Positions 48,117 to 59,774 of a stretch of DNA of 64,000 nt are shown here, one piece after another. The position numbers and the translations under genes are program-made. The notes under the pieces are model-generated. The model worked only from the letters and a program-made list of their open reading frames with translations. It was not told the DNA's origin and searched no databases. Source of the DNA: Pseudanabaena yagii GIHE-NHR1 (lineage in GTDB: Bacteria; Cyanobacteriota; Cyanobacteriia; Pseudanabaenales; Pseudanabaenaceae); NCBI RefSeq assembly GCF_012863495.1, contig NZ_JAAVJL010000001.1:3033501-3097500 (forward strand), in the 5' to 3' direction. The first letter of the stretch is position 1. Each line of letters starts with the position of its first letter.

Positions 48117-49280
48117 CTAGAGAGGCTCATCAGTATGCTGATGCTGTTGAGGCAATGTCTCAATGCGTCCGGGAATTGGCTTTTGGTTTGGCTGTAAACC
48201 TGACAACATTCGCGATAGTTGTAAGCCATCGAGCACAGGCTTAGTCTCACGGATTTTATGCCATACCGATCGCGCCATTAGTAAAGAATGACCTTGACGT
48301 TGAGCCTGAATTCTTTCTAAATAATCTTCGCGCTCAGGCTGATAGTCTGCCGAGGACAGTTGCAAGCTTGATCCTTCAGGAGATTGCTTGGTAACTATTT
48401 GGGCAATTTGCGAAGTTAGTTCAGGATAAAGCCATGTATAGGCAGGATGTACCGTAAGCTGGCAATGGTGGACAAGCTTTTCGCTGGATTGATTTGCGGC
48501 AGGACGTTGTAATAGTAAGTAAAAGTAACCGATCGCTGCTTTACGTTGAGGCTCATAGACATAGCCAGAGACATCTTGCAACTGGTTAATCAGCAAGGAA
48601 CCATGATTAATCAGTTTGTCGATCACCTTAGCTCGGAAATCATCAACATTGAGATCGTAAACCTGACGAATCTGTGGTGGCATCGCCGCCGTATCTAGTT
48701 GATAGAGTAAACTCGCATCAGCATTACTAACGGGCATCAAATTGGGCAAATCAGGAGAATGCTGTGCTAGCTCCTTTAGGCTCTCAGCACTGATCTCCCA
48801 ATCTGTAAATTGAGCGAGCGGTTGAAATCCATTTTGACGATAGAGGGCAATCATGTCTTTTTGGTTGATATCAACCTGCAAGACCCATGTCCTCGCCTCT
48901 AAGCAAGACTCTAGGCAATAGCGGATTAGTTGTGTACCGACATTGGTCTGACCGTTATGGGCTTCAGGTAAAACCACCACGCGATCGATCTTCCAAGTAC
49001 TGCTGTTGTTATTAAAAGGTGAAACCCGAATAAAGCCTTGAATAACCCCATTGCATTCTGAGACATAGGCTCTTACATAGGGCTTAAGGAGGACTTGTAC
49101 AGGTGCAGGCAACCAGCTAGCGAGCTGATGCAAATTAATTTTCTGACGACTGCGACATCCACTAAGATCGCTGACAGCAATCTGTTCGAGATCTTGGGGC
49201 GAAGCAAATCGCTGGATAAACTCTAGATCTCGATGTTGAAGCGGACGGATCGTGTTACCAAGCACTGGGAAAGATTGCAT
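48117..49280 (-). CDS. GNAT-family acetyltransferase, two-domain
   Basis: 387 aa. The first half is a GNAT domain: IDRVVVLPEAHNGQTNVGTQ (acetyl-CoA loop) and WVLQVDINQKDMIALYRQNG followed by FQPLAQFTDW. The second half (KAAIGYFYLLLQRPAANQSS) has a weaker GNAT-like pattern ending in a proline/glutamine-rich tail. Conserved cyanobacterial protein with unknown substrate. Confidence 0.75.
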   Translation of the reverse strand: MQSFPVLGNTIRPLQHRDLEFIQRFASPQDLEQIAVSDLSGCRSRQKINLHQLASWLPAPVQVLLKPYVRAYVSECNGVIQGFIRVSPFNNNSSTWKIDRVVVLPEAHNGQTNVGTQLIRYCLESCLEARTWVLQVDINQKDMIALYRQNGFQPLAQFTDWEISAESLKELAQHSPDLPNLMPVSNADASLLYQLDTAAMPPQIRQVYDLNVDDFRAKVIDKLINHGSLLINQLQDVSGYVYEPQRKAAIGYFYLLLQRPAANQSSEKLVHHCQLTVHPAYTWLYPELTSQIAQIVTKQSPEGSSLQLSSADYQPEREDYLERIQAQRQGHSLLMARSVWHKIRETKPVLDGLQLSRMLSGLQPNQKPIPGRIETLPQQHQHTDEPL

Positions 49281-49450
49281 AACTGCTCGTGCTAGAAAGA
49301 AATTTGGTGAAGCTTAGGGATTGTTAGCTCGACATCTAATGAAATGATCTTAATACATATCCACTAGAACCAGTCCGAAAAGCTATAAGTCTTCAGAAAG
49401 AAGATTATGCTTCTTGTTCAGCAACATAATCTTGATGAATAGCTGAGTTG

Positions 49451-49487
49451 AAGCCTATGGCTCACGCGCAGCGTGAGTCATAGGCTT
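49451..49487 (-). terminator. Stem-loop at the end of the Nit2-like gene
   Basis: AAGCCTATGGCTCACGC and GCGTGAGTCATAGGCTT pair over 17 bp with one mismatch. The stop of the hydrolase gene is at its edge. Confidence 0.75.
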
Positions 49488-50317
49488 TATAAAACAGTGC
49501 GATGTTGCAAGGATGGCATCTGGCGGCGGATTTGATCGATGCGCGATGGTTGAATTTCCGCGATCGCTACACCTGTGCGATCGCCAGCATCAGCTAGGAC
49601 AATGCCCCAAGGATCAATGATCATTGCATGTCCATGAGACTGACGACGTGGGGTATGCATTCCCACCTGAGCAGGAGCAATGACATAGCTGGTATTTTCG
49701 ATCGCCCTTGCCTGCAATAAGACCTGCCAATGATCTTTACCTGTAAAGGCTGTAAAGGCAGCAGGCACAAACAGGACATTTGCGCCATTCTTAGACAAGT
49801 GGCGATATAGTTCAGGAAATCTCACGTCGTAGCAGACCGATAGCCCTAGATTGCCATATTGCTCAGAGTAGTAAACAGGTGGTGCTTCTTCACCAGCGAG
49901 AATTGTGGCTGATTCTTGATAGGTATTACCATCAGGTAAATTGACATCAAATAGATGCATTTTGCGATAGCGGGCGAGTTCTTCACCCTCACGACCAACT
50001 AACAGAGCCGTGTTGTACATCTTGCCTGCATGACCATTACTAGCATTAGATACTGGTACTGGAAAACCACCACCAAGTAGCAGGATTTGATAGCGTTGAG
50101 CGATCGTAATCAGAAACTTTTCGCTTTTTTCCGCAATTTCTGTAGCAAGCCTGATCTTTTCACTTTCATCGCCCAAAAACGGAAAGTTTTCAGGTAAACA
50201 GACTAATTCTGCTCCTCGATTTACTGCCAGTTGGATCAAATCTTCTGCCTGAGCAAGATTTTTGTCTACATCCGAGACACTGGTCATTTGTACGGCGGCC
50301 GCCAAATATGACTTCAT
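49487..50317 (-). CDS. Carbon-nitrogen hydrolase, Nit1/Nit2 type (deaminated-glutathione amidase-like)
   Basis: 276 aa. The nitrilase-superfamily triad is visible: Glu in VCLPENFPFLGD, Lys in YRKMHLFDVNLPDG and Cys in LGLSVCYDVRFPELYRHL. The HLFDVNLPDG...YQES segment marks the Nit1/Nit2 branch (omega-amidase or deaminated glutathione amidase), a metabolite-repair function, distinct from the Nit1C nitrilase at 30864. Monocistronic. Confidence 0.9.
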   Translation of the reverse strand: MKSYLAAAVQMTSVSDVDKNLAQAEDLIQLAVNRGAELVCLPENFPFLGDESEKIRLATEIAEKSEKFLITIAQRYQILLLGGGFPVPVSNASNGHAGKMYNTALLVGREGEELARYRKMHLFDVNLPDGNTYQESATILAGEEAPPVYYSEQYGNLGLSVCYDVRFPELYRHLSKNGANVLFVPAAFTAFTGKDHWQVLLQARAIENTSYVIAPAQVGMHTPRRQSHGHAMIIDPWGIVLADAGDRTGVAIAEIQPSRIDQIRRQMPSLQHRTVL

Positions 50318-50462
50318 TGCAATCCTTAAAACTTTCCCACGTAATCTAGATTAAGTGCTGTATAACACCTAATCTAGATTACCGCGCTATAGCGCTTTAC
50401 GCTCTAACAAAAAACAATTGGGGAAAATTGATTAAGAGCATGTGTCAAAACTATCCGTCAAT

Positions 50463-50499
50463 CAAAAAAGGCTATGGCTTAAGCCACAGCCTTTTTTGA
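50463..50499 (-). terminator. Rho-independent terminator of phoU
   Basis: AAAAAAGGCT.TGGCTTAAGC and its complement CCACAGCCTTTTTT. Symmetric A/T runs allow bidirectional use, 12 nt after the phoU stop. Confidence 0.85.
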
Positions 50500-50510
50500 T
50501 TTTTAGCTAA

Positions 50511-51182
50511 TTAGCCAAGTTTTCCCGTCACAATATAAGCAACCCTCAGCCCCACATTAGTTGCATGATCCGCCATTCTTTCCAAATGGTGAATTGCTAA
50601 GACCATCAGCATTACAGGTTCCATGGGTTCACCAAATACTCTTTGGGAAGCGAGGAGGTTATAGATGTTTTGATAGTCATAGTCAACGGCATCATCTTTA
50701 GCCTTGATCTCCAGCCCAATATTTTCATCAAGGTTAGCTAACGCTTCTAAGCTCATGGCAAGCATAGCTCGGCAGCGATTAGACATGGTTTGTAATTCAC
50801 CTAAATAAGGAGATGGTGCATAAGGGAAAAGCTTAATCGCGATATCACCAAGGTTTTCGGCATAGTCACCAATGCGTTCAATATCACGGATTAGTTGCAT
50901 CAAAGCACTCAATAATCTGAGATCGCGAGCGACTGGTGACTGTAAAGCAATTAAATTGATGCAATCCATTTCAATTTGGCGATAGATCTGATCAATCTGC
51001 TTGTCTTGAGGATCGATGCGAGTAGCAGCTTCTAGATCGCGTTCAAATAGGGCGGAATGAGCCAAAAGAAAGGAATTTTCGACAAGTGCGCCCATTCGCA
51101 AAGTATCTTGCTCGAGGCGATGTAATTGGCGCTCAAATTCACTTCTTGTACGTTTTTGTTCTCGATACGATGTTTCGACCAT
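50511..51182 (-). CDS. phoU: PhoU-type phosphate signalling regulator
   Basis: 223 aa, all helical, two PhoU repeats. FERQLHRLEQDTLRMGALVE starts repeat 1; RLLSALMQLIRDIERIGDYA carries the E/D-x3-D metal cluster; the second repeat has MVLAIHHLERMADHATNVGL. PhoU links the Pst transporter to the phosphate-sensing kinase (SphS in cyanobacteria). No pst genes are adjacent. Confidence 0.93.
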   Translation of the reverse strand: MVETSYREQKRTRSEFERQLHRLEQDTLRMGALVENSFLLAHSALFERDLEAATRIDPQDKQIDQIYRQIEMDCINLIALQSPVARDLRLLSALMQLIRDIERIGDYAENLGDIAIKLFPYAPSPYLGELQTMSNRCRAMLAMSLEALANLDENIGLEIKAKDDAVDYDYQNIYNLLASQRVFGEPMEPVMLMVLAIHHLERMADHATNVGLRVAYIVTGKLG

Positions 51183-51325
51183 GGACTCCCACCAAAATTA
51201 AATGGGATAATAAAAGAAATAAAGTAATGTATATTTCACATACTTATATTACATCGTTACATAGGTTGTAATACTTAGCAGTATTTGCAAATACTAATCA
51301 ATCAATTAAAAGATGCTTTTAAATA

Positions 51326-51358
51326 AAAAATATGTGGTGTGAAGCACCACATATTTTT
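51326..51358 (-). terminator. Terminator of the small GNAT gene
   Basis: AAAAATATGTGGTG-TGAAG-CACCACATATTTTT, adjacent to the stop at 51357. Confidence 0.85.
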
Positions 51359-51845
51359 AGTAGGCATTAGCTTGAGTTAGTTCCGTAGCCATTAATTGCC
51401 GATCGCTATCTAAATCCTTGTTAAATAAAACTAAGGTCGTTGAAGAATTTTGCTCAAACCCAATATGCTCGTAAAACTTTTGCTGATGGGTGGTCATTAA
51501 ATATACCCGTTCCACATTGCAAACATGGGGATGGGCTAATACTGTTTGGACTAATTTGCGACCTAGCCCTGCACCGCGATAATCAGGATTGATCACCACA
51601 TCCCAGATGTTGGCTCGGTAAACACCATCACTAGTGGCACGGGCATGTCCGATCAGGCGATCGCCATCCCATACCGTTACAACCGGTTTGGAGTTGGCGA
51701 TCGCGATCGCTAAACCTGCCACAGTGCGATCTTTTGCCCAAAATGCCCCCATTTTGAATAATTCTTGTAATTGCTCTAAATCGACATCTTCGTGGCGATC
51801 GCTAAAGCGAATGTGGCGATGATCCATATGCTTGATTTCCCGCAT
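51357..51845 (-). CDS. GNAT acetyltransferase (plastid NSI/GNAT2-like)
   Basis: 162 aa. The start at 51845 is kept; ATG 51827 (MDHRHIRFSDRHEDVDLEQL) is an alternative. VVTVWDGDRLIGHARATSDG, then WDVVINPDYRGAGLGRKLVQ (R/Q-x-x-G-x-G/A acetyl-CoA motif) and VYLMTTHQQKFYEHIGFEQN form the single GNAT domain. The VWDGDRLIGFARATSDG pattern is close to the cyanobacterial relatives of plastid GNATs (NSI/SNAT). Substrate not determined. Confidence 0.82.
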   Translation of the reverse strand: MREIKHMDHRHIRFSDRHEDVDLEQLQELFKMGAFWAKDRTVAGLAIAIANSKPVVTVWDGDRLIGHARATSDGVYRANIWDVVINPDYRGAGLGRKLVQTVLAHPHVCNVERVYLMTTHQQKFYEHIGFEQNSSTTLVLFNKDLDSDRQLMATELTQANAY

Positions 51846-52037
51846 GTATTAATATTAATCCCCAAAATAGAGCCATCTATTTTGAGGATTTTAAAATCTG
51901 AATGGGTATTACTTTTAAGCCGATGCAGTATGGCTACACTTTACGGACTTGGTATCACCCATTGAAATAAGGGTGACATATTAGCGATCGCATCAATGTA
52001 TCTGTTTTTGCTACTTGCATCAATTTACCCTTAAAAA

Positions 52038-52070
52038 CAGATAAAGGGCGCTCTTAGCGCCCTTTATCTG
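52038..52070 (-). terminator. Terminator of desC
   Basis: Perfect hairpin CAGATAAAGGGCGCT-CTT-AGCGCCCTTTATCTG, directly after the desC stop. Confidence 0.88.
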
Positions 52071-52934
52071 TTACTTAGCCTGCCAAGGCTCAGCTATGTA
52101 AACTTTCTGTGCTAAGCCCAATGTTTGCAGCAAACTAATCACACCCCAAGTTGGATCAATTTCCCACCATTTCAAACCAGAGCGAGCAGACTTAGGATAA
52201 GCATGGTGGTTGTTGTGCCAGCCTTCGCCGTAGGTCAAAATTGCTGCCCACCAGAGATTGGTGGAATGGTCAGGGGTTTCTGCAAAGTTCTTGTAGCCCC
52301 ACTTATGACAAGCAGAGTTAATCAACCAAGTGCTATGCCATAGAAAGACTGAACGCACAGCCATGCCGTAAACCAAGAAGGACATGCCGAGTCCAGAGAA
52401 TAACTTCTCGCCAATTACATAGAGCAATGCAGCGAAGGGTACTTGCAAAAGCAAGAAGTATTTATCGAGGAATCTATAGTAAGGATCGCTAGCGAGATCG
52501 GGGGCAAACTTGTTGTAGTAAGTACTCTTGAAATGCTCAGGCTTAGAGTACATGATCCACATGATGTGGCTCCACCAAAAACCTTTATTTGCCGAATAGG
52601 GATCTTTTTGATTATCTTCTGTAAAACCGTGATGCTGGCGATGTCCACCCACCCAGAATACAGGACCACCCTGCATGGCTAATGCGCCGATGGTAGCAAT
52701 GATATATTCCAACCACTGAGGGACTTGGAAACTGCGATGACTCAGTAATCGGTGATAACCTAGGGTAATCCCAATGCTACCAAGGAACCAATGCAAGAAG
52801 ATCGTGAGGATCACAGCTTGCCATGAAAAATAAAAAGGAGCGGCGAGGGCAGCAATATGAAAAGCACTGAAAAAGGCAACATTTGTCCAGTTCAGTTTTG
52901 GGGTAGTTGAGATGGCTTCAGTAGTGGCGGTCAT
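52071..52934 (-). CDS. desC: Delta-9 acyl-lipid fatty acid desaturase
   Basis: 287 aa; ATG 52934 (MTATTEAISTTPKLNWTNVA) is preferred over the longer frame to 52976. The three His boxes are present: HRLLSH (LGYHRLLSHRSF), HRQHH (GGHRQHHGFTED) and HNNHH (GWHNNHHAYPKS). Four TM segments surround them. DesC puts the first double bond at C9 of membrane-lipid stearoyl chains. It is divergent from the TetR-type gene at 53043, with a pair of palindromes in the 108-bp gap, so that regulator very probably controls it. Confidence 0.93.
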   Translation of the reverse strand: MTATTEAISTTPKLNWTNVAFFSAFHIAALAAPFYFSWQAVILTIFLHWFLGSIGITLGYHRLLSHRSFQVPQWLEYIIATIGALAMQGGPVFWVGGHRQHHGFTEDNQKDPYSANKGFWWSHIMWIMYSKPEHFKSTYYNKFAPDLASDPYYRFLDKYFLLLQVPFAALLYVIGEKLFSGLGMSFLVYGMAVRSVFLWHSTWLINSACHKWGYKNFAETPDHSTNLWWAAILTYGEGWHNNHHAYPKSARSGLKWWEIDPTWGVISLLQTLGLAQKVYIAEPWQAK

Positions 52935-52964
52935 GAAATAACAACTTAAGGGGTGGTGAGGAGA

Positions 52965-53032
52965 TGCAAGTATCACTTACAGTTATATCAAGTCTAACTG
53001 TTTTTTAAGTAATAATGCAAGTATCACTTGCA
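52965..53032. promoter_or_regulatory. Two TetR-type operator palindromes between desC and its divergent regulator
   Basis: TGCAAGTATCACTTGCA (53016-53032) is a perfect inverted repeat with a 3-nt centre, and TGCAAGTATCACTTACA (52965-52981) is a copy with one mismatch. They are 51 bp apart, close to five helical turns, and each lies just upstream of one gene. A classic layout for auto- and cross-regulation. Confidence 0.8.
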
Positions 53033-53042
53033 AATCATCTCA

Positions 53043-54314
53043 ATGGTACATGCTCCCATGTCTGTATCTCGAATTCCCACTCGCCAACGCATTGTTAACA
53101 CAGCACTGGAGCTGTTTGCTAGCAAGGGAATTACCGAGACCACTACTCGCCAAATCGCTGATTTCGCTCAAGTTAATGAAGTAACTCTATTTCGCCATTT
53201 TGGGAATAAACATGGTTTATTGTTAGCGGTATTGCAAGAATGTTTGCAAAAATATTTGGTACTGGCTCAAGTAGGGGAGTCCTTGATGGTGTCTGATATT
53301 TCTAGTCAGAGCGACTTGCGTCGCTTTCTCAAATACTACATCCAGAGTTCTTTGCGGGCGCTCGAAAGTGTGCCTGAGTTAGTGCGATCGCTCGTTGGCG
53401 AAGCAGGACAATATCCCGCCGAGAGTCGTCAAGCCCTTGCCCAAGGTATTAATCAGGTCAATCAAACGATCGCCACGGCAATTAATGATGTCTTGGCAAA
53501 TTCGCGACTGCAATATACTTTGCCACCGATTAAACTGGCTAACCTATTAAATACTTGCATCTTGGGCTATGCCGTCATTACTTTGACTAGTGATGTGCAT
53601 ACCATCTGGCGCGATCGCGATGATTTTGTCAATACTCTAGTTGATATGTTTGTCCAAGAGGTCAGCCAGTTAACACCCGCCCATCCCATAATCGATATTC
53701 CTGCGGAGACGGTACGCGAAATTCTCCTGCAAGCCAAGAAATGTGGTGCAAAAGATTATGCGATCGCCTATTTATTGTTTGGGGCAGGACTGACGGCAAT
53801 TGATATTACGCGATTAAGAGTTAAGGATTATCAAATTCAAGCCAATCACGGAATTTTACGCACCAAAGATGTGGCTGATCAGGTGCGCTCAGTGCCTGTG
53901 AATCAAAAAATATTGGGGCATCGCTACGGATCGGCAACTAATAATCCCCTCAGTGCCTATTTGAAGAGCCGTAGACAGGAGATTAAGGAGAGATATAAAG
54001 GTGATCAAAAGGAAGATGCTCAGACTCTTGATCATAGAGAGGCAATGTTTTTGAGTGGCGACCTTCAACCCTTATCTTTAGAAGAAATCGAGCAAATGTG
54101 GACAAGCTGGACGCAAACCTATTGCAATCTAGATGGCTCATCCTTAGCGATCGCCCAAGCCAGATATACTTGGTGCATCGAAATGCTAGCGCGAGGCATG
54201 GATGCGGATAGTTTTTGCATCATTAGTGGCATTAAACCCAAAGAACTCAAAGCCTATCAAACCCGTTTGAACGAGAAATTAGCAATCGATAAAGCGATCG
54301 CCCTTGACTCTTAA
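53043..54314 (+). CDS. TetR-family regulator with C-terminal tyrosine-recombinase-like domain
   Basis: 423 aa from ATG 53043 (ATG 53058 also possible; neither has a strong ribosome binding site, and the TTG 53028 overlaps the operator). Residues about 10-60 are a TetR HTH (RIVNTALELFASKGITETTT, RQIADFAQVNEVTLFRHFGN), and the ligand domain runs to about 205. The C-terminal 200 residues resemble a phage-integrase catalytic domain: AKDYAIAYLLFGAGLTAIDI, TRLRVKDYQ, VRSVPVNQKI, and YTWCIEMLARGMDADSFCII with KPKELKAYQTRL. The first catalytic Arg (GLR) is Thr, and the H-x-x-R box reads A-x-A-R-Y-T, so it is probably inactive and used for DNA binding or oligomerisation. Likely a regulator of desC. 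Confidence 0.8.
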   Translation: MVHAPMSVSRIPTRQRIVNTALELFASKGITETTTRQIADFAQVNEVTLFRHFGNKHGLLLAVLQECLQKYLVLAQVGESLMVSDISSQSDLRRFLKYYIQSSLRALESVPELVRSLVGEAGQYPAESRQALAQGINQVNQTIATAINDVLANSRLQYTLPPIKLANLLNTCILGYAVITLTSDVHTIWRDRDDFVNTLVDMFVQEVSQLTPAHPIIDIPAETVREILLQAKKCGAKDYAIAYLLFGAGLTAIDITRLRVKDYQIQANHGILRTKDVADQVRSVPVNQKILGHRYGSATNNPLSAYLKSRRQEIKERYKGDQKEDAQTLDHREAMFLSGDLQPLSLEEIEQMWTSWTQTYCNLDGSSLAIAQARYTWCIEMLARGMDADSFCIISGIKPKELKAYQTRLNEKLAIDKAIALDS

Positions 54315-54397
54315 TTTTTTTGTAATGCGGCTTTGACGCACCACAAAAAATTGATTCCTTATTTTCTGTTAACGCGAGTTCTAGATAATTTGAAACA

Positions 54398-54440
54398 GGC
54401 TTTGAGAGAGGGTTTACGTAGCAAACCCTCTCTCAAAGCC
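54398..54440. repeat. Perfect 18-bp-arm hairpin after the TetR-type gene
   Basis: GGCTTTGAGAGAGGGTTT mirrored after ACGTAGC. Located in the 400-bp region between 54314 and 54715, otherwise without features except an A/T-rich stretch 54540-54620 (TTAATGCG repeats) that may hold the ftn2 promoter. Confidence 0.75.
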
Positions 54441-54714
54441 CAAAATTTGCCAGCTTAACCCGAACTAACGTTTTGTTATGGGCTTTTTACTTTTTTAGCT
54501 ACTTTCGCCAAGATAATCAACTTAGTGTATAATTCGGGCGTTCTATGTACTCCATTTTTGGAGTATTCAGAATTGCATATGCATACTTTATTAATGCGCT
54601 ATTAATGCATTTTAATGCGTTAGTTACGGAGCATCTTTTTTGAGAGGCAAACAGGTTGGTATTATCGGCGCTTAGATCGACATTTCCAATTGAAGTTTTG
54701 GGTAGAAAAGCAAA

Positions 54715-56877
54715 GTGAGAGTTCCCCTAGACTGTTACCGCATTCTTGGTTTAACACACCTATCAGGGCTAGACAAAATCCAGCAAGCCCACAGAGATCG
54801 CCTGCTTTCTATGCCAAGGCGGGAATATTCTGATGCGGCGATCGCCTCTCGCAAACGCATCATCGATAAAGCTTACGAACTTTTAATCGAGCATATTAGT
54901 GCCCCTAAAGATAGCATTTCTGATGAAATCAGCGATCGCCCTAATGATCGTCCAGTCACAACCCTACCGCCACAAGTCGAAGCTGACGAAAAAGACTTTG
55001 CAGGACTATTACTAATTTTGTACGAACTCGGCGAATCCGAGAAAGTCCTTTCCCTTGCTAAACCCTATTACGATCCCGAAGAAGCCGAATACCAGTCGGC
55101 AAGGATCTCGCCCCATGACCCCGACCTATTGCTTTCGGTATCTCTGTCTTTTCTTGATCTCGGTCGGGAATATTGGAAACAAGGTCAATATGAAGCTGCT
55201 GCGTCGTCCCTAGAATCTGCCCAAGACCTGCTATTGCGAGAAGGACTATTTCTCAGCATTCGTAGTGAGATCCAAGCTGATCTCTTCCGCTTACGTCCCT
55301 ATCGGATTCTTGAATTGTTAGCATCCCCTGACAATCATACCAATGAACATCGCAAAGGGATGTCACTATTGCAGGAAATGCTTGAGGCGCGTCGCGGTAT
55401 TGATGGCTCAGGCAATGACTACTCTAGCCTCGGTATTGATGACTTTTTGCGCTTTATTCAGCAATTACGCAGCTATATGACCGCCATCGAGCAGCAAACT
55501 CTGTTTGAAGAAGAAGCACGTCGCCCCTCTTCGGTAGCAACCTATTTAGCGGTCTATGCCTTAATTGCGCGGGGATTCTCGCAACGACAACCTGCCTTGA
55601 TTCGGCGAGCAAAGGGCTTGCTGGTCAAACTTAGCGCCAAGCAGGATATTTATCTCGAAAAAGCGGTATGTGCTTTGCTCCTCGGACAAACTGAAGAGGC
55701 AAGCGCGGCGATCGAAAATAGTTCTGAAGACGATCAAATTGCCTATATTCGCCAAAATTCTGAGGGTGCGCCCGATCTCCTACCTGGGCTATGTCTCTAT
55801 AGCGAACGTTGGCTTCAAGAAGAGGTCTATCCGCATTTCCGTGATTTGATGAGTCAAATCGTGTCACTCAAGGATTACTTTGCCGATGAGCAGGTGCAAG
55901 CCTATCTCGAAGAATTGCCAAATACAGGTGCGCCCTCGTCGGACTGGACATCTCCTGTCGGTGGCGATCGCTTAGGTTGGTCTACACCTACACCTGTAGA
56001 GGAGTCACCCCCAAGACGCGATCTGGAAACCACTACTAGCAACGAGCCAAGACTCTCGACCTATTCCCCTGAAGCACCTAATCGCTTTCAGCGATCGAGT
56101 ACGCCTGTCCTTGAGAGACCAAACTATAGCAATACTAGCAACACTAATGGCAGAGGCAATGCCGTGCGCGATCTACCTAGATCGCGTCGTCCTAGTAACG
56201 TTCCCTCTGTTCGCAACAATCGAAATATCAATGATGCTGCTAAGGAAATCAATCGTTCTAGCCATAACTCAGGACATTCAGCATCAAAACGCAAGTTTAA
56301 TTTTGGTCGTTTAGTTACTGTTATTGTCGTAGCGATCGCCTTGCTAGCAGGTTCGATTTGGCTAATGGTTTGGGCTTTACGCGCCTTGACTGGAGCCTCT
56401 CGCTCCGAGGCAACCATCCCCCTAGAGAAAAACCTCGCGCCCATAGTACAAGCCATCAAAGAGAATAACTCCGTAGCGATCGCGCAACCTGGCCCCCTAG
56501 ATAAGGAGACGGCAACCAAGGTCATCGAAACATGGCAGCTTACTAAAACAAAAGCGTTAGGCAAAACCTATGAAGATAACTTATTAGAAGAAATCCTGAC
56601 TGATCCTGCTCTTAGTGATTGGAAAAGTCGATCTAAGGATTTAAAAGCAAGTAACTCATATTTGCAATATGAGGTCAAATCCAGTGAAGTGGATAAGGTG
56701 ACGACCGACGGAGATACCAAAGCGAAGGTAGTTGCAAAAATATCGGAATCCCGTAATTACTTTAATAATGGGGAACTAGATCGCAGTGGCTCAAAGGACA
56801 ACGCAAACTATACAGTTGAATATGATCTTGTGAAAAAAGATAATAAATGGCTGATTCGGGATATGTTGGTCTTCTAA
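54715..56877 (+). CDS. ftn2: Cell division protein Ftn2/ZipN (ARC6 homologue)
   Basis: 720 aa from GTG 54715. MRVPLDCYRILGLTHLSGLD and QQAHRDRLLSMPRREYSDAA form the J-like N-terminal domain typical of Ftn2/ARC6. A TM helix covers about 533-556 (VTVIVVAIALLAGSIWLMVW), and the C-terminal 130 residues are the periplasmic IMS/DUF4101 domain (VIETWQLTKTKALGKTYEDN; DNKWLIRDMLVF). Ftn2 anchors the FtsZ ring in cyanobacteria and is the ancestor of plastid ARC6. The Ser/Asn/Arg-rich linker (about 420-525) is disordered. Convergent with recA across a shared terminator. Confidence 0.95.
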   Translation: MRVPLDCYRILGLTHLSGLDKIQQAHRDRLLSMPRREYSDAAIASRKRIIDKAYELLIEHISAPKDSISDEISDRPNDRPVTTLPPQVEADEKDFAGLLLILYELGESEKVLSLAKPYYDPEEAEYQSARISPHDPDLLLSVSLSFLDLGREYWKQGQYEAAASSLESAQDLLLREGLFLSIRSEIQADLFRLRPYRILELLASPDNHTNEHRKGMSLLQEMLEARRGIDGSGNDYSSLGIDDFLRFIQQLRSYMTAIEQQTLFEEEARRPSSVATYLAVYALIARGFSQRQPALIRRAKGLLVKLSAKQDIYLEKAVCALLLGQTEEASAAIENSSEDDQIAYIRQNSEGAPDLLPGLCLYSERWLQEEVYPHFRDLMSQIVSLKDYFADEQVQAYLEELPNTGAPSSDWTSPVGGDRLGWSTPTPVEESPPRRDLETTTSNEPRLSTYSPEAPNRFQRSSTPVLERPNYSNTSNTNGRGNAVRDLPRSRRPSNVPSVRNNRNINDAAKEINRSSHNSGHSASKRKFNFGRLVTVIVVAIALLAGSIWLMVWALRALTGASRSEATIPLEKNLAPIVQAIKENNSVAIAQPGPLDKETATKVIETWQLTKTKALGKTYEDNLLEEILTDPALSDWKSRSKDLKASNSYLQYEVKSSEVDKVTTDGDTKAKVVAKISESRNYFNNGELDRSGSKDNANYTVEYDLVKKDNKWLIRDMLVF

Positions 56878-56878
56878 A

Positions 56879-56912
56879 TAAAAAAGCAGCGCCTAGCGCT
56901 GCTTTTTTATTT
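56879..56912. terminator. Bidirectional terminator between ftn2 and recA
   Basis: AAAAAAGCAGCGC-CTA-GCGCTGCTTTTTT, with T- and A-runs on both sides. Confidence 0.9.
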
Positions 56913-56917
56913 TTGAT

Positions 56918-58072
56918 TTAGAAATCATCTGGTGGAATATCGTCATCTTCAGGCTCAATTTCTTCAGGGACAACCTTTGTCGCTGAAACCGCTACACCTG
57001 CGGAGAGTTTTTCGCGCACTTGTCGCTCAACCTCCTGAGCAAATTCTGGCTTATCTTCCATATACTTGATCGTATTGTCGCGACCTTGACCAATGTTGTC
57101 ACCTTGGTAGCTATACCATGCACCCTTACGGACAATGATACTCATTTCCTCGGCTAGGTCAACGAGACAGCCGAGAGTGGAAATGCCTTTACCAAAGATG
57201 ATGTCGAATTCAGCAATACGGAAGGGTGGAGCGACTTTATTCTTAGCCACCTTAACCTTGGCACGAATCCCATATTCTTCTGTGCCTTTTTTGAGGGTTT
57301 GGATACGACGAATATCGAGACGCACCGAAGCATAGAACTTGAGAGCAGTACCGCCTGTAGTTGTTTCAGGGCTGCCATAGGATACGCCGATCTTTTGACG
57401 TAACTGGTTTAGAAAAATGACAATACAGTTTGATCGCCCCACATTTGCTGTGATTTTACGCAGTGCTTGGCTCATCAATCGAGCTTGCAAACCAACATGG
57501 GAAGCACCCATTTCCCCTTCGATTTCGGCACGGGGTACAAGCGCGGCAACGGAGTCGATCGCAATAATATCGACAGCCATCGATCGCACAAGATTATCAA
57601 CAATTTCTAATGCCATTTCCCCTGAGTCGGGCTGGGAAATTAACAGGTTATTAATATCGACACCAACACTTGCCGCATAGGTAGGGTCGAGGGCATGTTC
57701 AGCATCCACGAAGGCAGCCACACCACCACGTTTTTGGACTTCGGCGATCGCGTGGAGTACTAATGTCGTTTTCCCAGAGCTTTCAGGTCCGTATACTTCG
57801 ATCACCCGCCCTTTGGGTAAGCCACCACCAAGGGCAAGATCGAGGGGCAATGCGCCACTAGGAATGGTCTCAACGCGCATGTTCGTCGCATCACCCAAGC
57901 GCATGATCGAGCCTTTGCCATGATCCTTCTCGATCTTTTGCATGATCGCATCGAGCGCCTTCTTTTTCTCAGGGCTGATGCTCGCCTTTGCTAATTGAGC
58001 ATTTGCTGCTTGGGCGATCGGGGTAGCCTTATCAACTTGACTATTTGCCGTTGCAGAAGAATTTTTCGCCAT
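56918..58072 (-). CDS. recA: RecA recombinase
   Basis: 384 aa. Walker A GPESSGKT (about 94-101), Walker [24 protein letters not shown]-binding loops around [13 protein letters not shown] and [20 protein letters not shown]. The N-terminus is longer than in E. coli by about 30 Ala/Gln-rich residues, and the acidic tail [15 protein letters not shown] is kept. Catalyses strand exchange. A LexA-type box is not evident upstream. Confidence 0.98.
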
Positions 58073-58279: not shown

Positions 58280-59774
58280 CTGGAATTTAGACTAAGTTGA
58301 TTAAGAGAATCAGAAAAAGAGCAGGAAAAAGTGACCCAGAAAACGGAGAACTGAGAAAAAGCAAGAGAGAGAAAAAGAGAATATTGAAAGTTAGGAATTA
58401 AGGTAGTCTTGATTGACCTTTTTCGAGCGAGAAGCTCGTTTTTTGACGACAGGAAAGCGAGAAAAAGGAGAACGCTTGCGTCCAGATTTCCAACCGAGAG
58501 ACTTACCACGAGGTTGGGGAGAACAAGCAGGAGAGCCAATCCTGACCAAAAGTGCGGCAAAGCCCTGAGCGACTCGACCAAAATTAAGATTGGTTTGAGG
58601 TTTCTGCCAAGGCAAAGGAGTATCAATAACCAGTTGACGAGCCAACCACAATTGCCAAGAGAGTAAAGGCATAAGGTCACTCCAACGCAAAGCTTGCTGA
58701 GGAGTCAACAAATGGGGAAGAGTCCAATGTAATCTTTGTTTGGCAAAACGATACCAATGGTCGATGGCAAAACGACGTAAGTACAAGCGCCAAAGGGAGT
58801 CTAAAGTCGGCATCTGTTCACCCACCCAAGCTAACCACAAACCAGAGCAATGAGAATGTGTAACTCGAATAACTTGAATATGTCGTTGGGCTGCTTGCCG
58901 AAAGTGTAAGTTAGACCATTGCTGGATTTGCACCTGTCCAACCGTCTCATCTTCTAAGCTAAAAGTTGCCGATGGCTCTCCCCAACTATCAGCATTGGCA
59001 AGTTGGAATTTATCCCCATGCTTACGAGGACGACCATAACCACTGTAGGGCGCAGGGGCTTTGTATAAGCATCGGTTAGGACGTAGACGTATTAGTAAAT
59101 CGGCAGGGATATCCTCAGTCAAATTCATAAAGACGGCACTGCCATATTCACTGTCGTAAGTAGCGATTGGTCTTACCGTTAAATCTCGACATACTTGACT
59201 CAGTTGGAATGCGGCTCTTTGCCCTGCTGTCTCAAAACTACTGATCCGCTCGTGACATAACGGGATTGCCCAACTCCCTGTCATCTCTGGTATCCATGCC
59301 AAGGTGCTGTAGTCATGCCCTAACACGATCGGTTTGTTCCCTTCTACCAAATTCGGTTGATGCACAAAACTCCTGTCTTTTAGCGTTTTGGCATGGGGTC
59401 TTCCCCATCCTGTATGGTCTCCTGCTAGCAAAGGGCGGATGTCTTTGGGTATTTGTTCCACACATAACCGTCTTATCCTGCCTCGGTTGGGGCGACTGTC
59501 TTTTAATGATTCATACAGACTTGACCATTTTCTTCGATACACTGCGGATAACGATAATTCTACAAATGATTTCACTCTCGGACTGGTCAATACTGCATCC
59601 ATCAAGTCAAATATTGCATCCCGTCCGTTCCCTAAAAATCTATATACCTGTTGACGAAAGTCTTGTAGTTTATCAATAATCATGGCTGTAGATGTCTCTT
59701 TACTTTTCATCTACTTTAGGCAGTTTGTATCTCTTTTACTCTGCCTTTTTTACCTTTTTTAGTCTAAACTCCAG
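58280..59774 (-). mobile_element. Intact 1495-bp insertion sequence (copy 2)
   Basis: Terminal inverted repeats CTGGAATTTAGACTAA at the left and, on the minus strand, CTGGAGTTTAGACTAA at the right. A 6-bp direct repeat ACTGAA flanks the element on both sides (58274-58279, 59775-59780), a target duplication. Nearly identical to 17628-19031, so recently mobile. Confidence 0.93.
58391..59710 (-). CDS. IS701/DDE_5-like transposase
   Basis: 439 aa, intact. PLLAGDHTGWGRPHAKTLKD (first Asp, 'DHT.W.RP' motif), RPIATYDSEYGSAVFMNLTE (second Asp) and the C-terminal YLRRFAIDHWYRFAKQRLHW (acidic residue with helix; family-type third position) give the DDE layout. The basic tail GKSLGWKSGRKRSPFSRFPV may bind DNA. 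Only genes in IS copies at 17.6 and 58.3 kb in this window. Assignment to IS701 rather than an unnamed group is uncertain. Confidence 0.88.
   Translation of the reverse strand: MKSKETSTAMIIDKLQDFRQQVYRFLGNGRDAIFDLMDAVLTSPRVKSFVELSLSAVYRRKWSSLYESLKDSRPNRGRIRRLCVEQIPKDIRPLLAGDHTGWGRPHAKTLKDRSFVHQPNLVEGNKPIVLGHDYSTLAWIPEMTGSWAIPLCHERISSFETAGQRAAFQLSQVCRDLTVRPIATYDSEYGSAVFMNLTEDIPADLLIRLRPNRCLYKAPAPYSGYGRPRKHGDKFQLANADSWGEPSATFSLEDETVGQVQIQQWSNLHFRQAAQRHIQVIRVTHSHCSGLWLAWVGEQMPTLDSLWRLYLRRFAIDHWYRFAKQRLHWTLPHLLTPQQALRWSDLMPLLSWQLWLARQLVIDTPLPWQKPQTNLNFGRVAQGFAALLVRIGSPACSPQPRGKSLGWKSGRKRSPFSRFPVVKKRASRSKKVNQDYLNS

Follow-up and report, generated by a model that had tools for sequence, protein, structure and literature searches.

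The window, by which we mean the whole stretch of DNA analysed (64,000 nucleotides), exhibits a gene for a TetR regulator fused to a tyrosine-recombinase-like domain. The overall best explanation, which we favour with slightly better than even confidence, is that it encodes a repressor dedicated to desC, in which the dead recombinase tail would serve to couple two TetR dimers. What the computation shows is the domain make-up, the loss of the active site, purifying selection, operators in pairs, a promoter-like geometry and a constant linkage to desC. The genes and domains are:

53058-54314, plus strand: regulator gene, a fusion of TetR and a tyrosine-recombinase-like domain, 418 aa from its ATG.
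53058-53675, plus strand: TetR half (HTH and helical regulatory/dimer domain), from Pfam TetR_N and VIA-align.
53688-54311, plus strand: degenerate tyrosine-recombinase catalytic domain, residues 211-418, from the model, Foldseek and VIA-align.
52071-52937, minus strand: desC-like fatty-acid desaturase, probable regulatory target (Pfam FA_desaturase, E = 1.9e-18).

The regulator ORF has alternative starts at GTG (53046) and TTG (53028). Because the ATG at 53058 is the position where most of the relatives also begin, the protein is probably 418 aa long; an earlier note on this DNA had numbered it to 423 residues, which fits the GTG start and not the ATG. The N-terminal half matches Pfam TetR_N (E = 3e-13, 49.7 bits, above the curated cut-off of 24). 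Residues from about 4 to 205 of the model exhibit VIA-align Z scores of about 16-18 against many TetR structures, and the all-helical TetR-fold regulatory domain of the predicted model aligns with NemR (4yze) over 187 residues (Z = 17.7), this half being modelled at lower confidence (block pLDDT 49-88).

The earlier note had also proposed the tyrosine-recombinase-like C-terminal domain and suggested structure prediction as a check. The prediction was run and confirms the proposal, the last ~208 residues being predicted as the catalytic fold. A structure search with the full-length model was dominated by TetR rows, and the tail was therefore folded alone (mean pLDDT 94.8, pTM 0.91). Among the Foldseek matches listed for this model, all 50 are recombinases or integrases, the best being XerA (5hxy_D; E = 2.3e-7, TMq 0.69, rmsd 4.1). 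Within the full-length model, the tail aligns with XerA over 176 residues (VIA-align Z 19.6, rmsd 3.6). At the sequence level, the C-terminal 213 residues alone match Phage_integrase with E = 1.6e-5 and 25.2 bits, under the Pfam cut-off of 27.1; the PF00589 scores of the tail (22.3, 25.2 and 23.1 bits) all lie below this curated cut-off, and the regulator ORF is the weakest of 14 PF00589 matches in its own genome. A phmmer search with the single tail sequence reaches XerA (4a8e) with E = 6.4e-4, and a profile of 63 tails with E = 6.3e-12. By its predicted structure, the tail is a degenerate tyrosine-recombinase domain.

Several other integrase-like or tail-like sequences were encountered. Four equal 198-aa frames of G000 (C1:1417406, C1:1816302, C1:2269819 and C2:499284) match Phage_integrase with 74.6-75.5 bits and may belong to a mobile element present in several copies and carrying a tyrosine recombinase; equal-scoring integrase matches with one internal stop each are located at C5:65302-65805 and C8:34995-35498 of G000. 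In genome G006, a 107-aa frame (L222:1835-2158) is ~48% identical to the tail end and, from its sequence, looks like what is left of a second copy; its neighbour resembles, by eye, a prolipoprotein diacylglyceryl transferase gene. With regard to a possible phage origin of the tail, a scan of one collection of viral contigs with the tail profile, at one sensitivity, gave 20 pattern matches and no confirmed relatives.

Most of the catalytic residues expected of this fold are lost in the tails, the Tyr excepted; two of the positions are:

53793-53795, plus strand: Thr replacing the catalytic Arg I (0 Arg, 78 Ser and 22 Thr in 110 distinct tails).
54255-54257, plus strand: Tyr in the nucleophile column (Tyr in 108 of 110 distinct tails).

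We aligned the tails with XerA and, as a yardstick, four recombinases of the own genome. The alignment bears out how the earlier note had read the active site: Thr replaces Arg I, the HxxR box is altered (to A..R), and the Tyr of KAYQTRL, residue 400 counted from the ATG, falls in the nucleophile column. The window tail exhibits Thr, Val, Ala, Arg, Ile and Tyr at the six catalytic columns. The alignment is imperfect: three of the four own-genome recombinases match all six columns, and the fourth (L154) misses Lys and His II in it. A first census of 135 rows contained same-genome repeats and was repeated on the 110 distinct tails; one locus (L135) failed the motif filter and is absent from both censuses, and is counted as fused in the locus comparison. 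Arg I, His II and His III are kept in none of the distinct tails (His III being Trp in 22), Arg II in 29, Lys in 6 and Tyr in 108. Since the catalytic residues are mostly lost in these 110 tails, we read the tail as a recombinase fold without an intact active site. To judge from the alignment, it is almost certainly catalytically dead, and the kept Tyr is probably structural.

In the order Pseudanabaenales, a match is present in 31 of 38 genomes; 30 of them have the fused form, and in the remaining one, G036, the TetR half stands alone. The fusion occurs in 41 of 386 genomes of a sample of the cyanobacterial phylum. Tail matches in this sample number 44, three of which (G289, G356 and G401) were set aside as ordinary integrases on their weak partial match and frame length; the TetR half at E up to 1e-25 is found in 44 genomes, the 41 fused and 3 tail-less. 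A set of named genomes comprises the best 80 of 559 confirmed matches (Pseudanabaena, Nostoc, Leptolyngbya, Calothrix and others) and, being the best matches to a fused query, is biased to fused forms. The locus survey covers 150 distinct loci, left after the removal of 26 duplicates on identical sequence around the start; near-identical species remain among them. Of these loci, 137 are fused and 9 tail-less, 3 have a broken tail, and 1 is truncated by the end of its contig. The tail has a median dN/dS of 0.110 (at most 0.208) over 68 usable pairs from 26 near relatives, compared with 0.034 in the TetR half; thus the tail evolves faster than the TetR half yet under purifying selection. Read from these sequences, the fusion is an old, conserved cyanobacterial gene.

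The desaturase gene, which we take to be desC, its family assignment being FA_desaturase, could also start at a GTG (52976). From ATG to ATG, 120 bp separate it from the regulator gene, a distance that is above 200 bp in 56 of the 137 fused loci. A divergent, adjoining desaturase gene (58-95% identity) is present in all of the best 80 of 559 named-genome matches, and each of the 150 distinct loci has a desaturase match (46-100%) in divergent orientation, which supports the suggestion of the earlier note that desC is the likely regulatory target; on this linkage we regard desC as the likely target. No other gene is linked to the regulator in 80 of these 80 loci, some of them incomplete: ARC6 is found in 17, recA in 15 and PhoU in 19. 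In Pseudanabaena relatives, the surroundings (48117-58072 in the window) comprise acetyltransferase-like and PhoU-like genes ahead of the regulator, and an ARC6-like division gene and recA behind it (names provisional except for ARC6). At 58391-59710 on the minus strand, a 439-aa ORF looks transposase-like by eye. A search for RNA elements between 50000 and 58000 of the window gave no Rfam match at the gathering threshold. A second desaturase gene of the genome (G000 C1:2610574-2611353) is 65% identical to that of the window and lacks an operator match at up to one mismatch, so that probably just one of these desaturase genes is under the control of the regulator.

The intergenic region contains the two 17-bp palindromes, 51 bp apart from start to start, that the earlier note had reported and offered as ready operators:

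52965-52981, no strand assigned: operator 1 (left), TGCAAGTATCACTTACA, conserved in fused loci, beginning about 9 nt past the putative desC -10, on or slightly beyond the expected start of transcription.
53016-53032, no strand assigned: operator 2 (right), TGCAAGTATCACTTGCA, conserved in relatives, overlapping the putative desC -35.

The arms of the right palindrome are perfect; the left one departs at a single position from a perfect palindrome with the conserved arms. The 64 kb of the window contain 4 strand hits at up to 2 mismatches against a mean of 0.28 in shuffled sequence, and none of 100 shuffles reaches 4. Elsewhere in the 5.57-Mb genome there is no occurrence at up to 1 mismatch, and a wider regulon was accordingly dismissed at that threshold. 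Outside the own genome, exact matches only were searched for in the phylum sample. The exact motif is found in 32 of 386 genomes, namely 30 of the 41 with the fusion and 2 of the 345 without it; the reversed pattern, used as a control, is found in 0 of 386. One of the two non-fusion genomes, G048, has the motif beside desC at a tail-less locus, and the hit in the other (G166), inside a long ORF resembling a polyketide synthase, is probably due to chance. The other 11 fusion genomes have no exact motif, and those inspected have inexact pairs (e.g. L223, L224 and L225). In the best 80 of 559 named-genome matches, the intergenic region always contains exactly two sites at up to 3 mismatches, a single such site being expected by chance in less than 1% of 200-position stretches (uniform-base estimate). 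At least two operators are present in 136 of the 137 fused loci, the sole fused locus with one recognisable site being L031 of G006. The palindromes are thus supported as conserved, locus-specific candidate operators.

The spacing of the operators is 43-58 bp in 135 of these 136 loci and 85 bp in L061; this last value is real, and a value of 327 is an artefact of L223, where a near pair lies 47 bp apart. By clade it is mostly 46-48 bp, 51-53 bp in Pseudanabaena and 58 bp in two loci, so that helical phase is not conserved. The DNA looping that the earlier note had suggested is not borne out: with so variable a spacing, looping in the strict sense is neither needed nor supported, and co-operative binding of two dimers coupled through their tails fits better than a DNA loop.

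A promoter-like pair of hexamers, the first of which overlaps the right operator, is directed towards desC:

53015-53020, minus strand: putative desC -35, TTGCAT, overlapping operator 2 (conserved geometry).
52991-52996, minus strand: putative desC -10, TAGACT, 18 bp from the -35 (conserved geometry).

As -10-like we counted a hexamer whose second letter is A and whose sixth is T, in most cases TAnnnT. Such a hexamer stands 16-18 bp from TTGCAN towards desC in all of the best 80 of 559 named loci, against 24.7 with shuffled spacers, and likewise in every two-site fused locus (129 of 129), where shuffles would give about 41. As this element lies 16-18 bp desC-ward of the TTGCAN of the right operator, the operators flank a putative desC promoter. 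In the best 80 of 559 named loci the left operator starts 2-11 nt past the -10, and would therefore abut or cover the expected desC start point. The window hexamers are weak with respect to the consensus (TTGCAT 3/6, TAGACT 4/6), and a consensus sigma-70 scanner called no promoter in the intergenic region of the window; since TTGCA is conserved as part of the operator anyway, the evidence for the promoter is the conserved distance to the -10. The mirror arrangement towards tetR occurs in 10 of the best 80 of 559 loci against 25 in shuffles, and a tetR-directed promoter with its -35 in the left operator is thus unsupported. A terminator-like hit on the minus strand at operator 2 is the operator palindrome itself, probably by chance.

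Tail-less loci provide a natural comparison. For it we left out L228, L251 and L253, in which the frame of the tail is broken, and L245 of G450, which runs off its contig. At least two operators are present in 136 of 137 fused loci and in 2 of 9 tail-less ones (Fisher p about 1e-9, on related rows and not phylogenetic). The other seven tail-less loci have one operator each, the left one not being recognisable, and retain the site with a -10-like hexamer 17 bp away. The two exceptions are G048, with operators 47 bp apart, and G457; thus paired sites do not strictly require the tail. The tail-less loci belong to about three lineages, a single genus accounting for six of the nine, and a number of them stand on long branches, so that the association of tail and operators does not represent nine independent events. 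In a tree of 83 TetR halves (midpoint root, long branches; L245 labelled tail-less, with some doubt, and L251 and L253 fused), the tail-less labels need at least three changes. The tails of G036 and G048 were probably lost, since both nest among fused rows; the third tail-less group, on a long branch, may be ancestral or represent a loss. Some tail-less TetR halves stand on very long branches (L221 of G036, 1.59 changes per column; the stem of the G214 group, 1.81), as if constraint had been relaxed after the loss of the tail or before its gain.

We propose the following mechanism. The TetR half would bind the two copies of TGCAAGTRNYACTTRCA, a dimer on the right operator blocking the desC -35 and a dimer on the left operator the desC start point. 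With the operators on the putative -35 and at the expected start point, the bound regulator would keep RNA polymerase off desC; given the overlap of the right operator with the putative -35, a single bound dimer could already suffice. Release of the repressor would presumably come through the TetR pocket, on a signal related to lipids such as acyl-ACP or free fatty acid. We consider it probable that the regulator represses desC, and nearly as probable that it regulates its own gene. According to the available part of PMC3511530, TetR regulators less than 200 bp from a divergent neighbour repressed this neighbour in Streptomyces tests, the rule being weaker at gaps above 200 bp.

The dead tail would have been kept as a means of contact between proteins. 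With a TetR dimer on each of the two operators, four tails would come together, clasp one another and hold both sites co-operatively. Tyrosine recombinases likewise assemble from four subunits, the number of tails that one operator pair would gather. The persistence of the tail, together with the weaker hold on the second operator where the tail is missing, suggests that the tail couples the two dimers, a role to which we give a little less than an even chance. A more specific version, in which a tyrosine recombinase was domesticated for assembly and not for chemistry, its synapse-like tetramer locking the desC promoter and the second operator tending to decay after tail loss, is offered tentatively.

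The same desC repressor might carry the tail as a sensor or partner-binding module, responding to a ligand, a protein or a membrane signal. The conserved stretch of the tail (consensus RQVPVNQWILGKRYGSYTNNPL..WLKSRK) is longer in the alignment than the matching part of XerA and of two recombinases of the own genome (L146 and L147), invariant residues extend up to the last helix, and the loss of the tail in G048 with both operators kept would also fit. However, a sensor leaves unexplained why a second operator accompanies nearly every fused locus (136 of 137) and few tail-less ones (2 of 9), and we hold this reading to be rather doubtful. It is unlikely, in our estimation, that the tail still binds DNA in the manner of a recombinase, clamping the ~30 bp of promoter DNA between the operators. 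Its fold is that of a DNA-binding domain, several Arg/Lys residues are nearly invariant among the tails, and the available part of PMC6077249 provides a precedent in the DNA-binding domain of yeast Ndc10, related to tyrosine recombinases. The median net charge of the tails (+2, range -4 to +7) resembles that of two of the four own-genome recombinases (+1, +2, +6 and +13), but net charge does not discriminate, and the inter-operator spacer is variable in length and, the putative -10 excepted, little conserved between clades.

The bound regulator could also activate desC, for instance by recruiting polymerase under cold or saturated-lipid conditions, as AtrA, a divergent TetR regulator with a longer gap, activates its neighbour (PMC3511530, available part); a gap above 200 bp likewise occurs in the 56 fused loci counted above. 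Operators on the putative -35 and at the expected start are nevertheless expected to block polymerase, which renders activation quite improbable. A tail still working as a recombinase on the palindromes, e.g. in promoter rearrangement, is rejected on the active-site census (Arg I, His II and His III in 0 of 110 tails, Arg II in 29). It would be extremely improbable in spite of two near-identical sites in the same orientation and the Tyr kept in 108 of 110 distinct tails, as the divergent arrangement of the two genes is the same in all 150 distinct loci and the sites persist beside tail-less orthologues.

An HTH with a helical regulatory domain, a divergent neighbour and palindromes in the shared gap are features of the TetR family (TetR, QacR, FadR), and the two operators between tetR and tetA parallel the paired candidate sites described here. 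The present regulator differs from this family in carrying an extra recombinase-fold domain of ~208 residues. We know of no recombinase tail in DesT of Pseudomonas aeruginosa, and among the matches listed for the TetR half against the PDB (60 of 134) no DesT entry was recognised by name. DesT is a TetR repressor of desCB, divergent from it across a 158-bp gap and responsive to saturated and unsaturated acyl-CoA (PMC3511530 and PMC10634369, in their available parts). The window resembles that system in having a TetR regulator divergent to a desaturase gene, and the linkage and candidate operators found here would fit it. The part of PMC3511530 available to us, like that of a second TetR paper, makes no mention of a recombinase-like tail on TetR regulators.

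In the open-access literature searched we found no description of a TetR-recombinase fusion or of TetR control of cyanobacterial desC, and the available part of PMC3264485 describes neither. In 2018, the transcriptional control of cyanobacterial fatty-acid synthesis was reported to be scarcely known, with the suggestion of a global regulator yet to be found (PMC6123915, available part). The present locus is a specific and conserved candidate for direct desaturase control, with a defined operator pair, and its tail-less variants form a natural series for testing the role of the tail. In many cyanobacteria, the gene of a membrane-fluidity enzyme is accompanied by a divergent, putative gene switch bearing a dead recombinase tail.

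With Xer and other tyrosine recombinases (XerA, XerH, XerD, Cre, lambda Int) the tail has in common the fold, the order of its elements and the Tyr at the nucleophile position; in contrast to Xer proteins, its other catalytic residues are mostly lost and the TetR half takes the place of the N-terminal DNA-binding domain. Domesticated dead tyrosine recombinases are known in eukaryotes, namely the Crypton-derived DUF3504 genes, Gcr1 and Ndc10 (PMC3212892 and PMC6077249, available parts). These likewise appear to reuse a recombinase-like domain without an active site in DNA-bound or regulatory proteins, but they are eukaryotic and lack a TetR fusion, and the DUF3504 genes have lost the Tyr that the TetR-fused tails keep (PMC3212892, available part). 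TetR regulators and dead recombinase domains are therefore both known, and what appears new is their fusion, in which a dead tyrosine recombinase would have found a new use within a bacterial transcription factor, the precedents in these sources (PMC3212892, PMC6077249, as far as available) being eukaryotic.
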